A stretch of 35,685 nucleotides of DNA from Bacteroidota bacterium (GTDB lineage Bacteria; Bacteroidota; Ignavibacteria; Ignavibacteriales; Melioribacteraceae): positions 1 to 35,685 of the forward strand of contig JAJYXU010000025.1 in NCBI GenBank assembly GCA_021801605.1, written 5' to 3'. The translations under genes and the position numbers were made by a program. Shown here one piece after another: positions 9,190 through 30,362 of this stretch (the stretch's first letter is position 1; the number at the start of each line of letters is the position of its first letter). The notes under the pieces are model-generated. The model searched no databases and was not told the origin of the DNA. It worked only from the letters and a program-made list of their open reading frames with translations.

Positions 9190-9215
9190 AGATCAAGAGC
9201 AAGAATAAGATCATG
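9190..9215 (+). repeat. AAGATC/AAGAGC repeat, left copy of an inverted pair
   Basis: The 26-base stretch is built from hexamer-like units (AGATCA, AGAGCA, AGAATA, AGATCA). Its reverse complement occurs at 11051-11076 with 24 of 26 bases matching. A third, more diverged copy lies at 32995-33081. The region 9064-9517 holds this repeat and the DUF4097 relic; I see no intact gene in it. Confidence 0.75.
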
Positions 9216-11025: not shown

Positions 11026-11050
11026 CTCCAAATGATCAGTTGTCGGTTTT

Positions 11051-11076
11051 CATGCTCTTGTTCTTGCTCTTGATCT
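11051..11076 (-). repeat. AAGATC/AAGAGC repeat, right copy of the inverted pair
   Basis: Reverse complement of 9190-9215 with two mismatches (24/26). Together the pair brackets the crcB, DUF190 and PAP2 genes. It also sits 26 bases beyond the PAP2 stop, so it may simply be a widespread intergenic repeat placed by chance. Confidence 0.75.
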
Positions 11077-14366: not shown

Positions 14367-14453
14367 AATAGAACGCAGATGACACAGATTGAGCGGATTT
14401 CCGCTGATAAAATCTGTGTGAATCAGTTTGATCAGCGTTATCTGCGTGCTATT
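14367..14453. repeat. 87-base palindromic repeat, copy A
   Basis: Bounded by AATAG at the left and CTATT at the right, with arms around GAACGCAGATGACACAGATT and TCAGCGTTATCTGCGTGCTA. It is homologous to copies at 18927-19013 and 29691-29776 of nearly identical length. It lies between convergent genes (NfnB-like and the 106-residue membrane protein) and could serve as a terminator (inference). Confidence 0.85.
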
Positions 14454-18149: not shown

Positions 18150-18401
18150 TTGCCCTCCGGATATGATTTGTTATTATAATTATTCCCACGTCGGATGGCT
18201 TTTGCAGAAAAGTTTTAAAATATTTTTTCAATTATTTTCTTATGTTTAATTGAGCCGGTACTTTAGCAGGCAGTTTATAGTACAACTCCAAATTTATTGG
18301 CAAAAAGATAAATTCTCGAGAGCCGTATTGCTTAATGCGTTTGTTTGACTATTTCACTGATAAAATCTATGTTATATAAAGATTTAATAAAGGTCTTGAG
18401 T

Positions 18402-18614
18402 ATGAGTACATCATTTGCTGCCGTTGTTGAAGAGGTGCAAAAACTTTCCGTTGAAGAGAAAGAAGAATTGCGACATTTGCTGGACAAGTACTTAATAGAA
18501 ACTAGACGCGAAGAAATCTATCAACATTATATTGAGTCAAAATCCGCGGAAAAAGAGGGGAAACTTTTTACTCCAAAAGACAATAATGATTTACGTAAGT
18601 GGCTTGAGGGATGA
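18402..18614 (+). CDS. Antitoxin of a RelE/ParE-type pair
   Basis: 70 residues from ATG 18402 (MSTSFAAVVEEVQKLSVEEK). An in-frame upstream ATG at 18345 would add 19 residues, but the downstream start gives the usual antitoxin N-terminus. The sequence is helical and charged, with the LSVEEKEELRHLLDKYL motif seen in many short antitoxins and a C-terminal KDNNDLRKWLEG, likely the toxin-binding tail. The stop overlaps the toxin start by 4 bases (ATGA at 18611-18614). No clear DNA-binding fold can be read. Confidence 0.75.
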   Translation: MSTSFAAVVEEVQKLSVEEKEELRHLLDKYLIETRREEIYQHYIESKSAEKEGKLFTPKDNNDLRKWLEG

Positions 18615-18880
18615 CAGAAGTTTCTTACAGCACTTCATTTCGAAAAGCATACAAGCGAAGAATCCTTTCAGATAGATTATTGAGTGAACGATTTGTAGAA
18701 AGATTAGAGATATTCAAAATCGATCCATTTGATCTTCGGCTTAGAACTCACAAACTCTCCGGTAGATTAGAGGGTCTTTACAGTTTCAGGGTAGATGCGG
18801 ATGTACGGGTGATTTTCTATTCCAAAGAAGCACAGCATGCTGTCTTTGTTGATATTGGAACCCACGATGAAGTATATTGA
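18611..18880 (+). CDS. RelE/ParE-superfamily toxin (YafQ-like)
   Basis: 89 residues, typical length. Visible family elements are SYSTSFRKAYKRR at the N-terminus, the HKLSGRLEGLYSFRVDADVR core and VIFYSKEAQHAVFVDIGTHD at the C-terminus. These belong to the RelE/YafQ group, ribosome-dependent mRNA endonucleases; the C-terminal His is compatible with the YafQ-type catalytic residue. Toxin activity inferred from family and the coupled antitoxin gene. Confidence 0.85.
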   Translation: MTEVSYSTSFRKAYKRRILSDRLLSERFVERLEIFKIDPFDLRLRTHKLSGRLEGLYSFRVDADVRVIFYSKEAQHAVFVDIGTHDEVY

Positions 18881-19040
18881 GTAGAGACCTCTGAAAAATA
18901 GAATTGTACATAACCGAAACATTTTTAATAGCACACAGATGACACTGATTTGACTGATTTTCGCAGATTAAATCTGTGTTAATCCGTTCAATCTGCGTCA
19001 TCTGTGTTCTATTTTTTAATTTTTCAGAGGTCTCTATTAT
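18881..19040. repeat. Nested inverted-repeat element (outer arms with repeat copy B inside)
   Basis: Outer arms AGAGACCTCTGAAAA (18884-18898) and TTTTCAGAGGTCTCT (19021-19035) are perfect complements. Inside lies repeat copy B. The element begins immediately beyond the RelE-type toxin stop and separates it from the convergent DUF2283 gene. No coding potential. It could be a small non-autonomous transposable element or a terminator. Confidence 0.8.
18927..19013. repeat. 87-base palindromic repeat, copy B
   Basis: Bounded by AATAG and CTATT like copy A. Left arm contains GCACACAGATGACACTGATT, right arm AATCTGCGTCATCTGTGTTC, so the outer 20 or so bases can pair. It is nested in the outer inverted repeat 18881-19040. 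Confidence 0.88.
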
Positions 19041-27067: not shown

Positions 27068-29680
27068 ATGTCAATCACCCCTTTGATGACACAATATGGA
27101 AAGATCAAAGAGAACTATCCGGATACAATTTTGCTTTTCCGAATGGGAGATTTCTTTGAAACGTTTGAGGAAGATGCAAAAATCGCCTCGAAGGTGCTGG
27201 GTATTACACTAACGAAACGTGCCAATGGAGGAGCTGGCGACGTTCCCCTTGCCGGATTTCCTCATCACGCGATTGATACATACCTGCCGAAACTTGTCCG
27301 TGCAGGTTACCGGGTTGCAGTCTGCGAGCAGATGGAAAATCCTAAATTTGCAAAAGGAATTGTTAAACGGGAAGTTGTTGAAATTGTAACTCCCGGTGTT
27401 GCAATCTCCGATAAACTTCTCGATCACAAAAAAAATAATTACCTTCTTTCAGTTTACATGGAAAATGAAATTGCCGGAATTGCATTCTGCGATATTTCCA
27501 CCGGAGAGTTTTTAACTTTTGAAGTGATGAGTTCCGAAGTTGCGCAGCAGCTCGGCTCTATCAATCCTTCCGAGATATTAATTCCCAAAAAGCTTAAGCA
27601 TGAACTCGAACCGATGATTCATAAGGCAGTTCCTTCCGCGCGAATAACAAAAATTGATGATTGGATTTTCAATTACGAATACTCTTCCGAACTTTTGATG
27701 AATCACTTCAACACAAAAACATTAAAAGGATTTGGAATAGAAACATTAACCGCGGGAATCAGCTCTGCCGGCGCAGCATTGAACTACTTACGCGAGACAC
27801 AGAAAGCTAATCTTACTCACATAAATAAAATCTCGCGTCACAATCCTTCCGATTATATGATTCTTGATCACTCGACGAAGCGGAATCTTGAAATCATGTT
27901 TACAATGCAAGACGGCGAGCGTGAAGGTTCGCTGATATCAATTCTTGACAAGACGGCAACTTCTATGGGCGGACGGATGCTGAAGAAATGGATCTCTGCC
28001 CCGCTTAGAAAATTAGAGCCGATCCTCAAACGGCAGGAATCTATTTCTGAGCTTCTTCAAAATAAAACTCTTAGAAAAAATTTACAGAACGAATTGAAAG
28101 AGATCGGCGATCTGGAGCGGTTGACATCAAAAATCTGTACAGGAAGAGTTAATCCGCGCGAACTTCTTCATTTAAAAACATCACTCAAAAAAATTCCTCT
28201 CATCAAACAACTTTTGGATCAGACATCAGTAGATACACTTGTTGCAATCAATCAGCGTTTAAATTCTCTAGACCAGATTGTAGAAAAAATAGAAAGAGCA
28301 ATTGCAGACGATCCGCCGCTCGCTGTATCCGATGGCGGAGTAATAAGGAATGGTTACAGTCCGGAACTTGATGAACTACGGGGACTTTCTACAAATGCAA
28401 AAGATTGGATTACAAATCTGCAGAAGACCGAACGCGAGAGGACAAAAATTTCTTCTCTGAAAGTAAGTTACAATAAAGTTTTTGGTTACTACATTGATAT
28501 AAGCAACGCCAACAAAGATAAAGTGCCGGAAAATTATATCCGCAAACAGACGCTCGTAAACAGCGAAAGATTTATCACTCCCGAACTGAAAGAGTATGAA
28601 GATAAAATTCTAAATGCGGCAGAGAATATTGGTAATCTTGAGTATCAGCTTTTCGATCAGGTTAGAATTGCTGCCGCATCCGAGACAGAGGTAATTCAGG
28701 AGAACGCACGGTTGATTGCCATGCTTGATTGTTACCAATCATTTGCCGAATGCGCTGATGATTACAAATATGTTTCTCCTCAACTTAATGATTCTGACCT
28801 GCTCGAAATTATTGACGGCAGGCATCCGGTTGTTGAAAGAATTCTTCCTCCGGGAGAAAAATTTACTCCGAACAACTGCAAGCTTTCTTCATCCGATGAG
28901 CAGATAATCGTATTAACCGGACCGAACATGGCTGGTAAATCTGTCTATTTACGTCAGGTCGGATTAATTGTTTTGATGGCGCAGATCGGATCGTTTGTTC
29001 CTGCGTCCTCCGCAAAGATCGGTTTGGTAGATAGAATTTATACACGCGTTGGTGCAAGCGATAATATTTCCGCCGGCGAGTCAACGTTTCTTGTTGAGAT
29101 GCAAGAAGCTGCAAATATTTTGAACAACGCCACAAGCAGAAGTTTGATTTTGCTGGACGAGGTTGGACGTGGCACAAGTACGTTTGACGGAATTTCAATT
29201 GCGTGGGCAATTACGGAATACTTGCATGAGAATCCGAAACTTGCTGCAAAGACTTTGTTTGCTACTCACTATCACGAACTGAATGAGATGGCAACGTTAT
29301 TTCCGCGTATAAAAAATTTCAAAGTTGAAGTGCGTGAATACGGCGATAAAGTAATTTTCTTACACAAAGTTACTTCCGGCGGGGCAGATCATAGTTACGG
29401 AATTCAAGTTGGGCAGATGGCGGGCTTGCCTCTTTTTGTTACTAACCGCGCAAAAGAAATTCTTGCTAATTTAGAGAGTAAAGAACTTACCCCTTACGAA
29501 ATGAAGAAAGCGAAACTTGCCAAACTTAAAGGAGTGGATGATTTTCAAATCAGTCTGTTCGAAATGAAAGATGAAGAATTACGCAAACATATTTCCGATA
29601 TTTCGATTAACAGTTTAACTCCTCTTGAAGCATTGAATAAACTGAGTGAGCTTAAGAAGAAGATTGATGATGAGAAATAA
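27068..29680 (+). CDS. mutS: DNA mismatch repair ATPase MutS
   Basis: 870 residues, full length. Mismatch-recognition Phe-x-Glu is at 29-31 within RMGDFFETFEEDA, with Phe in place of the usual Tyr at the middle position. Walker A is TGPNMAGKSVYLRQV from residue 617, followed by SAGESTFLVEMQEAA, Walker B ILLDEVGRGTSTFDG and FATHYHEL. The C-terminal helices extend to LKKKIDDEK. MutS binds mismatches and recruits MutL. No MutL or other repair gene is near, and none of the downstream genes is functionally linked, though a DUF1684 gene follows within 23 bases and could share the transcript. Confidence 0.97.
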   Translation: MSITPLMTQYGKIKENYPDTILLFRMGDFFETFEEDAKIASKVLGITLTKRANGGAGDVPLAGFPHHAIDTYLPKLVRAGYRVAVCEQMENPKFAKGIVKREVVEIVTPGVAISDKLLDHKKNNYLLSVYMENEIAGIAFCDISTGEFLTFEVMSSEVAQQLGSINPSEILIPKKLKHELEPMIHKAVPSARITKIDDWIFNYEYSSELLMNHFNTKTLKGFGIETLTAGISSAGAALNYLRETQKANLTHINKISRHNPSDYMILDHSTKRNLEIMFTMQDGEREGSLISILDKTATSMGGRMLKKWISAPLRKLEPILKRQESISELLQNKTLRKNLQNELKEIGDLERLTSKICTGRVNPRELLHLKTSLKKIPLIKQLLDQTSVDTLVAINQRLNSLDQIVEKIERAIADDPPLAVSDGGVIRNGYSPELDELRGLSTNAKDWITNLQKTERERTKISSLKVSYNKVFGYYIDISNANKDKVPENYIRKQTLVNSERFITPELKEYEDKILNAAENIGNLEYQLFDQVRIAAASETEVIQENARLIAMLDCYQSFAECADDYKYVSPQLNDSDLLEIIDGRHPVVERILPPGEKFTPNNCKLSSSDEQIIVLTGPNMAGKSVYLRQVGLIVLMAQIGSFVPASSAKIGLVDRIYTRVGASDNISAGESTFLVEMQEAANILNNATSRSLILLDEVGRGTSTFDGISIAWAITEYLHENPKLAAKTLFATHYHELNEMATLFPRIKNFKVEVREYGDKVIFLHKVTSGGADHSYGIQVGQMAGLPLFVTNRAKEILANLESKELTPYEMKKAKLAKLKGVDDFQISLFEMKDEELRKHISDISINSLTPLEALNKLSELKKKIDDEK

Positions 29681-29690
29681 GATAAACTCA

Positions 29691-29776
29691 AATAGCACAC
29701 AGATGAAACAGATCGAACTGATCAACACAGATTTATCAACTAAAATCTGTCCAATCCGCGTCATCTGCGTCCTATT
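29691..29776. repeat. 86-base palindromic repeat, copy C, inside the 5' end of a lipoprotein gene
   Basis: Bounded by AATAG and CTATT; left arm GCACACAGATGAAACAGAT, right arm AATCCGCGTCATCTGCGTCC. Unlike copies A and B it lies in coding DNA: the ATG at 29703 of the DUF1684 gene and its first 24 codons belong to it. Confidence 0.88.
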
Positions 29777-30362
29777 CATTATTTTATTTTTCGTTGGATG
29801 CAGAAAGAATTATACACCCGAACAAAAAGCTTATATCGCTAAGATCGAAAAAGAAAGGGAAGCAAAAAATGAATGGATGAAAAATGATAGCTCCTCACCA
29901 TTCAACAAAAAAGACAAAATAGAATTCCATGATTTAAACTACTTTGACGTTGATTCCGATTTTGTTTTTAAGAGCAAGTTGTATCCGTATTCACCTAAAG
30001 ACACTATTACGGTTTTGGGTACTAAAGGTGATGAGAGAAAGATGGTTCGTTATGGTTATTTCATGATCAACTATGATAAGAAAGATTATAAAGTCAATTT
30101 TTATGAAGGTAATATAAAAAGCGGAGAAAAGTATTACACAATTTCTTTTACCGACAAAACAACAAACAAAGAGACTTACGGTGTCGGCAGATATATTGAG
30201 ATGGAACTAAACACAGATTCAAACCATTTATATGAAATAGATTTTAATTTGGCTTTTAGCCCATACTGTTCTTATAGTCCAAATTTCTCATGCGCAATTC
30301 CAACAAAAGAAGATTTTATCCCGATAGCAATTAATGCCGGGGAGAAAAAATTTCACAATTAA
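29703..30362 (+). CDS. DUF1684 lipoprotein whose signal peptide is partly made of repeat DNA
   Basis: 219 residues from ATG 29703; the open frame extends further back into mutS, but upstream Mets lie inside mutS. A lipoprotein signal is present (VICVLFIILFFVGC, Cys33). The mature domain is DUF1684: VLGTKGDERKMVRYGYFMIN, FTDKTTNKETYGVGRYIEME, DFNLAFSPYCSYSPNFSC and IPIAINAGEKKF. The family is common in Bacteroidota; its biochemical role is not known. The first 24 residues, including half of the hydrophobic core, are encoded by repeat copy C. Confidence 0.85.
   Translation: MKQIELINTDLSTKICPIRVICVLFIILFFVGCRKNYTPEQKAYIAKIEKEREAKNEWMKNDSSSPFNKKDKIEFHDLNYFDVDSDFVFKSKLYPYSPKDTITVLGTKGDERKMVRYGYFMINYDKKDYKVNFYEGNIKSGEKYYTISFTDKTTNKETYGVGRYIEMELNTDSNHLYEIDFNLAFSPYCSYSPNFSCAIPTKEDFIPIAINAGEKKFHN

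Follow-up and report, generated by a model that had tools for sequence, protein, structure and literature searches.

Palindromic repeats of three families in the signal-peptide region of a lipoprotein gene next to mutS in Ignavibacteria

The Rickettsia palindromic elements (RPE) and the protein-coding palindromes of Wolbachia are short dispersed palindromes that occur in frame in genes and fall into several families (PMC10969869; PMC2996958), and the palindromic amphipathic coding repeats (PARCEL) are palindromic DNA coding for an amphipathic protein segment (PMC2996958). Here we describe a 35,685-nt stretch of DNA from a member of the Melioribacteraceae (Bacteroidota, Ignavibacteria; GenBank assembly GCA_021801605.1, contig JAJYXU010000025.1, positions 1–35,685 of the forward strand; hereafter the window), in which a copy of an 87-nt palindrome, termed type A, lies in the signal-peptide region of a DUF1684 lipoprotein gene that begins inside the tail of mutS. 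RPE would be the closest precedent, since type A is likewise dispersed, with copies outside genes and an in-frame insertion in a conserved gene that is free of it in relatives. However, RPE enter many unrelated genes, whereas type A was in frame at one locus only in the family genomes searched, and the present case also differs from RPE in its location in a signal peptide and in the three element families found at one locus across species. PARCEL are tandem repeats in surface proteins, in contrast to the single copy in a signal peptide seen here. No relevant publication came up in a literature search on Ignavibacteria repeats and on bacterial signal peptides derived from repeats, most subscription journals being outside its coverage. 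We estimate a probability of roughly 80% that a bare palindrome inserted past the mutS stop codon, inside the signal peptide of the lipoprotein and with the start unchanged, and that at least three palindrome families have entered this site.

In the window, mutS (27068–29680 in the list of open reading frames (ORFs), stop codon 29678–29680; this locus, copies A and B of the repeat and the transposable element around copy B are given on the forward strand) extends with its last codons into the start of the lipoprotein gene, and the MutS C-terminus is conserved beside a DUF1684 gene in most of the family members that were examined. From an ATG at 29703–29705, the lipoprotein frame stays open in the 5′ direction as far as a tandem ATG ATG (29667–29672) at the end of mutS, which is followed by a putative ancestral basic n-region, MRNKINS (29670–29690), and by the type A element, copy C (29691–29776, bare form, nhmmer 61 bits against the genome copies). 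Copy C starts 10 nt past the mutS stop codon and, at 86 nt, is 1 nt shorter than the consensus; its right half (29734–29776) encodes IRVICVL(F), from which some six hydrophobic-core residues derive. Then come the host-derived end of the hydrophobic h-region with the lipobox, IILFFVG-C (29777–29801, Cys codon 29799–29801), and the mature DUF1684 lipoprotein (29799–30362; PF07920, E=1.6e-35, 122.9 bits against a curated cut-off of 25). By simple hydropathy, the signal peptide has an n-region charge of +3, a core VICVLFIILFFV with a hydropathy of 3.72, and the lipobox FVGC, in which Phe at position −3 is less usual. The features of Sec export and signal peptidase II processing (basic n-region, hydrophobic core and lipobox Cys) are present, and the protein would be made from 29667/29670, exported and lipidated. 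A first-pass annotation of this DNA had read the ORF from the ATG at 29703, KICPIRVICVL in the right arm, the lipobox Cys (Cys33 counted from 29703) and the DUF1684 identity as we find them.

In each of the 18 element-bearing orthologues, the end of mutS is overlapped by an ATG of the lipoprotein frame, mostly 11–20 nt before the mutS stop codon (at −1 in L040 and −38 in L088), and the nearest element-free relatives have theirs at −14 (L085, L092 and L094) or −11 (L194). The N-termini of element-free proteins are MRKKINMKYSLIAILFFLLFSC, MRKKINTKKMLHSVLIVLALVSC and MKKKINIILKSILTFSIIISIYSC, and MRKKIN or MKKKIN of L085, L092 and L094 matches MRNKIN of the window, after which the element begins. 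In addition, L032, L038 and L090 contain no other ATG before the Cys codon, save the tandem second one in L038, and thus have no usable counterpart of the ATG at 29703. Since the start ATG is conserved with and without an element, and since some elements are ATG-free, the start would not have moved: translation probably begins at 29667/29670, with 29703 an internal Met codon and the element placed within the signal peptide. Programs that call starts automatically may therefore choose the wrong ATG in genes of this kind.

All evidence here comes from sequence. The genome of the window is a 3.24-Mb assembly of 189 contigs, and the sequences used, including those of the relatives (Ignavibacteria, Melioribacteraceae), are mostly metagenome-assembled genomes. 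The junctions from mutS to the lipobox Cys were scored with models of three dispersed palindromes, with shuffled junctions as control; copy C was itself among the copies from the window's genome that made up the type A model, so its 61.4 bits are not an independent score, in contrast to those of the other orthologues. Among the 18 element-bearing orthologues, 11 carried type A, six type B (AAGAGCAAG-type, of variable length) and one type C (GTCATTCTGA-type), and the rest of the orthologues carried none. Junction scores were 18–61 bits, except for one weak assignment at 8 bits (L193), and the maxima of the shuffled junctions were 4.3, 5.5 and 2.0 bits for types A, B and C, respectively. Types B and C are also dispersed repeats in these genomes, and type B is unrelated in sequence to type A. 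The ORF was open through the element in 18/18 cases, and the frame was kept in all of them. The distance from the mutS stop to the Cys codon was 79–136 nt with an element and 37–64 nt in the nearest element-free orthologues (L085, L092–L094, L194 and L195), and element-free orthologues keep the start, the synteny and the mature part. The four states (A, B, C and none) need at least nine changes on a tree built from the MutS C-terminus and the mature lipoprotein, with the signal region left out. The type C orthologue (L034, G010:C7) groups with a type A orthologue (L035, G003:C135) with short branches, their elements lie at the same signal-peptide point, and L035 and L036 have the same unusual element centre; because of this sister grouping and common centre, type A was probably replaced by type C in the L034 line, and recently so. 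The first-pass annotation did not include this recurrence, in which different species have in-frame repeats of three unrelated families at one and the same junction. The recurrence amounts to a natural repeated experiment in which non-coding repeat DNA turns into protein sequence, since a single junction with one conserved gene has received repeats of three unrelated families, and related species show the states before and after in replicate.

In the mechanism that we propose, a bare palindromic repeat would insert directly after the mutS stop codon and, as the lipoprotein gene begins inside the mutS tail, would fall in the signal peptide, between the MRNKIN n-region and the lipobox. The only survivors would be insertions that left the gene in frame with a hydrophobic stretch still fit for export. 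The left arm codes for a polar stretch; the right arm is its reverse complement, in which codons with a central A become codons with a central T, and codes for a hydrophobic stretch that could replace the h-region in part or entirely. In related species, at least three families of palindromes would have entered or re-entered this site. With gene ends taken from a simple ORF rule, type C copies lay mostly 4–9 nt or <60 nt from stop codons (about half of them at 4–9 nt), the distances to 3′ ends were mostly <70 nt for type B and mostly <50 nt for bare type A, and the 5′ ends were farther away for the dispersed elements. That dispersed copies adjoin stop codons would explain why the mutS stop was the target site, and because the next gene starts inside mutS, any insert there turns into its signal peptide. 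Removal of the exact 86 nt leaves an empty site that is out of frame, so the insertion may have involved additional bases, a duplication or a subsequent change of 1 nt, and we do not use it as an argument. More tentatively, and with the odds somewhat against it, such palindromes may be ready-made signal-peptide cassettes, a polar and a hydrophobic arm in either orientation supplying n- and h-region in one step, which unrelated families exploited repeatedly at the mutS–lipoprotein junction, with the ancestral h-region replaced in some species. The locus allows direct tests of how tolerant and evolvable signal peptides are, and of palindromes as a polar-then-hydrophobic code.

Because signal peptides function with widely differing sequences, recruitment of this kind is easy, and the surprise lies in the repetition and in the arm-specific retention and not in recruitment as such. 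The best-surviving rival explanation, which we nevertheless consider unlikely, is that the element is a neutral passenger, housed in a tolerant n-region and adding nothing while the host h-region does the work. The seven host residues IILFFVG after the element in the window and the type C element of L034, which is not hydrophobic, would fit such a passenger. The right arm of type A, however, is always used in its hydrophobic frame and outlasts the left arm. For these comparisons hydropathy was computed simply: the right half of copy C has a mean Kyte–Doolittle value of +1.64 in the used frame vs −0.42 and −0.52 in the other two, and all type A orthologues read the right arm in the IRVIxVLF frame (the right arm of type B is hydrophobic in two frames). 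The left arm was shortened or lost and the right arm retained in L084, L192, L193, L089 and L090, of which the first three form one clade, so this asymmetry rests on about three independent lineages. Also against a passenger, only four host residues (LSTG or ILNS) are left between the element and Cys in L090 and L091, and since the h-region there must then be element-made, the arm is nearly the whole of the predicted hydrophobic core in these two orthologues; copy C in the window supplies about half of it, VICVLF of VICVLFIILFFV. The median signal peptide was 40 residues long with type A vs 21 without, the 12-residue hydropathy maximum was 2.92 vs 2.94, and the n-region charge with type A was +2 to +6. 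The element would thus double the length while hydrophobicity and positive charge stay as they were. That repeat DNA forms part of the signal peptide, as had been claimed earlier, is thus borne out by an arm kept in its hydrophobic frame even without its partner, and making nearly the whole core in two species.

Several points weigh against insertion into, and recruitment by, the signal peptide as we propose it. The nine changes are a parsimony count, some branches of the tree are weak, and type A may be one old insertion, later lost or replaced, and not several insertions; the order of gains and losses is one that we infer, and the tree does not separate gains of type A from losses or replacements. 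L086 and L196, in which no element was detected, likewise have longer-than-usual signal regions. A Met downstream of the element could on its own start a normal signal peptide in L087, and L034 has an in-frame GTG and a host-made h-region, so that its element looks merely tolerated. Selection may act only to keep the frame open, and the ATGs inside type A copies could act as secondary starts in those species.

It is also improbable that the element is kept for an RNA hairpin after mutS, serving mRNA stabilisation, termination or the control of coupling, with its coding a side effect. Dispersed copies do lie directly past stop codons, and the window copy still folds, at a predicted −22 kcal/mol. 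On the other hand, the hairpins of the in-frame copies of L084, L089, L090, L192 and L193 are largely gone, at only −3 to −6.5 kcal/mol, in contrast to full-length intergenic bare copies of similar hidden Markov model score, which mostly reach −22 to −37 kcal/mol; with the hairpin decayed in several in-frame copies, we regard such a function as unsupported. As for the proposal that the repeat supplies the start at 29703, leaving the upstream ATG unused and the original start displaced, the ATG does lie inside the element, several type A orthologues have one in the same place and an n-region begun there would still be workable (net charge about +1), but a mutS-overlapping ATG constant in position and frame with or without an element, the several element-bearing orthologues that lack a usable internal ATG, and the basic residues 5′ of the element that match the n-region of element-free relatives leave it little probability, and we reject it on this orthologue evidence. 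Both forms in which the first-pass annotation had put it, a start supplied by the repeat and an original start displaced by the insertion, are unsupported by this comparison of orthologue N-termini and upstream DNA, which places the ancestral start upstream of the element, still present and in frame in the window.

The type A element is 87 nt long with the ends AATAG...CTATT, and its repetition in the genome is far above chance expectation: at least 40 genomic places matched over most of its length (BLAST), and its 16-nt palindrome core with up to two mismatches gave 72+71 matches, vs 0 for the reversed control. In the loci examined there were 62 copies and fragments, of which copy C alone lay entirely within an ORF that has a recognisable protein family; the remaining overlaps were with short ORFs, small overlaps at ORF ends, or frames open at a contig edge. 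Across the family genomes (up to 75), the type A peptide occurred in a long open frame only at the mutS–lipoprotein locus, bar one chance match. This match, a 394-aa protein in G035, was rejected as a further in-frame case, being an ordinary lipoprotein, and matches in G008, G045 and G000 were rejected for their short or interrupted frames.

The window had been described as holding three copies of an 87-base repeat; the number stands and the palindrome proved to be genome-wide, with copy C at 86 nt the exception in length. Copy A (14367–14453) is, like copy C, bare, and lies between converging genes. Copy B (18927–19013) is also intergenic, so that both are non-coding as had been stated, but it is no free repeat: it is carried by a 151-nt miniature inverted-repeat transposable element (MITE; 18884–19034) whose 16-bp terminal inverted repeats, GAGACCTCTGAAAAAT, are perfect. 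Of the full type A copies examined in the genome, over half, copy B included, sit in such a MITE of about 150 bp with the termini GAGACCTCTGAAAAAT...ATTTTTCAGAGGTCTC, and its 27-nt left end gave 33 genome matches vs 0 in the control. These matches were mostly identical copies, which points to a recent spread of the MITE, and the sequences suggest short target duplications at several copies. Type A resembles MITEs in this mode of carriage, whereas copy C and the orthologous copies are without MITE arms; the ends GAGACCTCTGAAAAAT, present at copy B, were not found around copy C.

Type A also resembles repetitive extragenic palindromes and their paired form (REP/REPIN), being an abundant short palindrome, mostly intergenic and near gene ends, in a genome with genes resembling REP-associated tyrosine transposases (RAYT; PF01797). 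It is unlike REP/REPIN, which are palindromes of 20–40 nt with a tag, GTAG or CGTC, at one end, in its length of 87 nt and its AATAG...CTATT ends. Five PF01797 matches were found in the genome, of which a truncated one adjoins a truncated type A MITE copy and another lies about 320 nt from a type C copy; no clear pairing of RAYT and element was found among them. The abutting match (L052, G000:C11:33803–34122), which had suggested RAYT as the mobiliser of type A, is a RAYT-like remnant with an internal stop, and the MITE copy beside it has lost its right end; it was not used as support for such a role, and RAYT would be no more than a candidate mobiliser.

Inverted copies of type B (AAGAGCAAG) also lie within the window, at 9190–9215 and 11046–11076. 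In two other genes, type B half-elements were found in frame as DQEQDQEQ and are candidates that resemble RPE: L260 (G008:C93), a long ORF that on inspection resembles an MtaB-type methylthiotransferase, and L251 (G045:C4), where the half-element apparently lies in the linker of what looks like a 2-oxo acid dehydrogenase E2 protein, again by inspection only. Directly before the MITE that carries copy B, two small overlapping ORFs (18345–18880) resemble, on inspection, a type II toxin–antitoxin pair. Between two further genes, the window contains a tandem array (2133–2301) with a 44-bp unit, GTAGAACAGTTTTCTAAACTGTTCACTAAGACTCAGAAAAATTT, which is itself partly palindromic.
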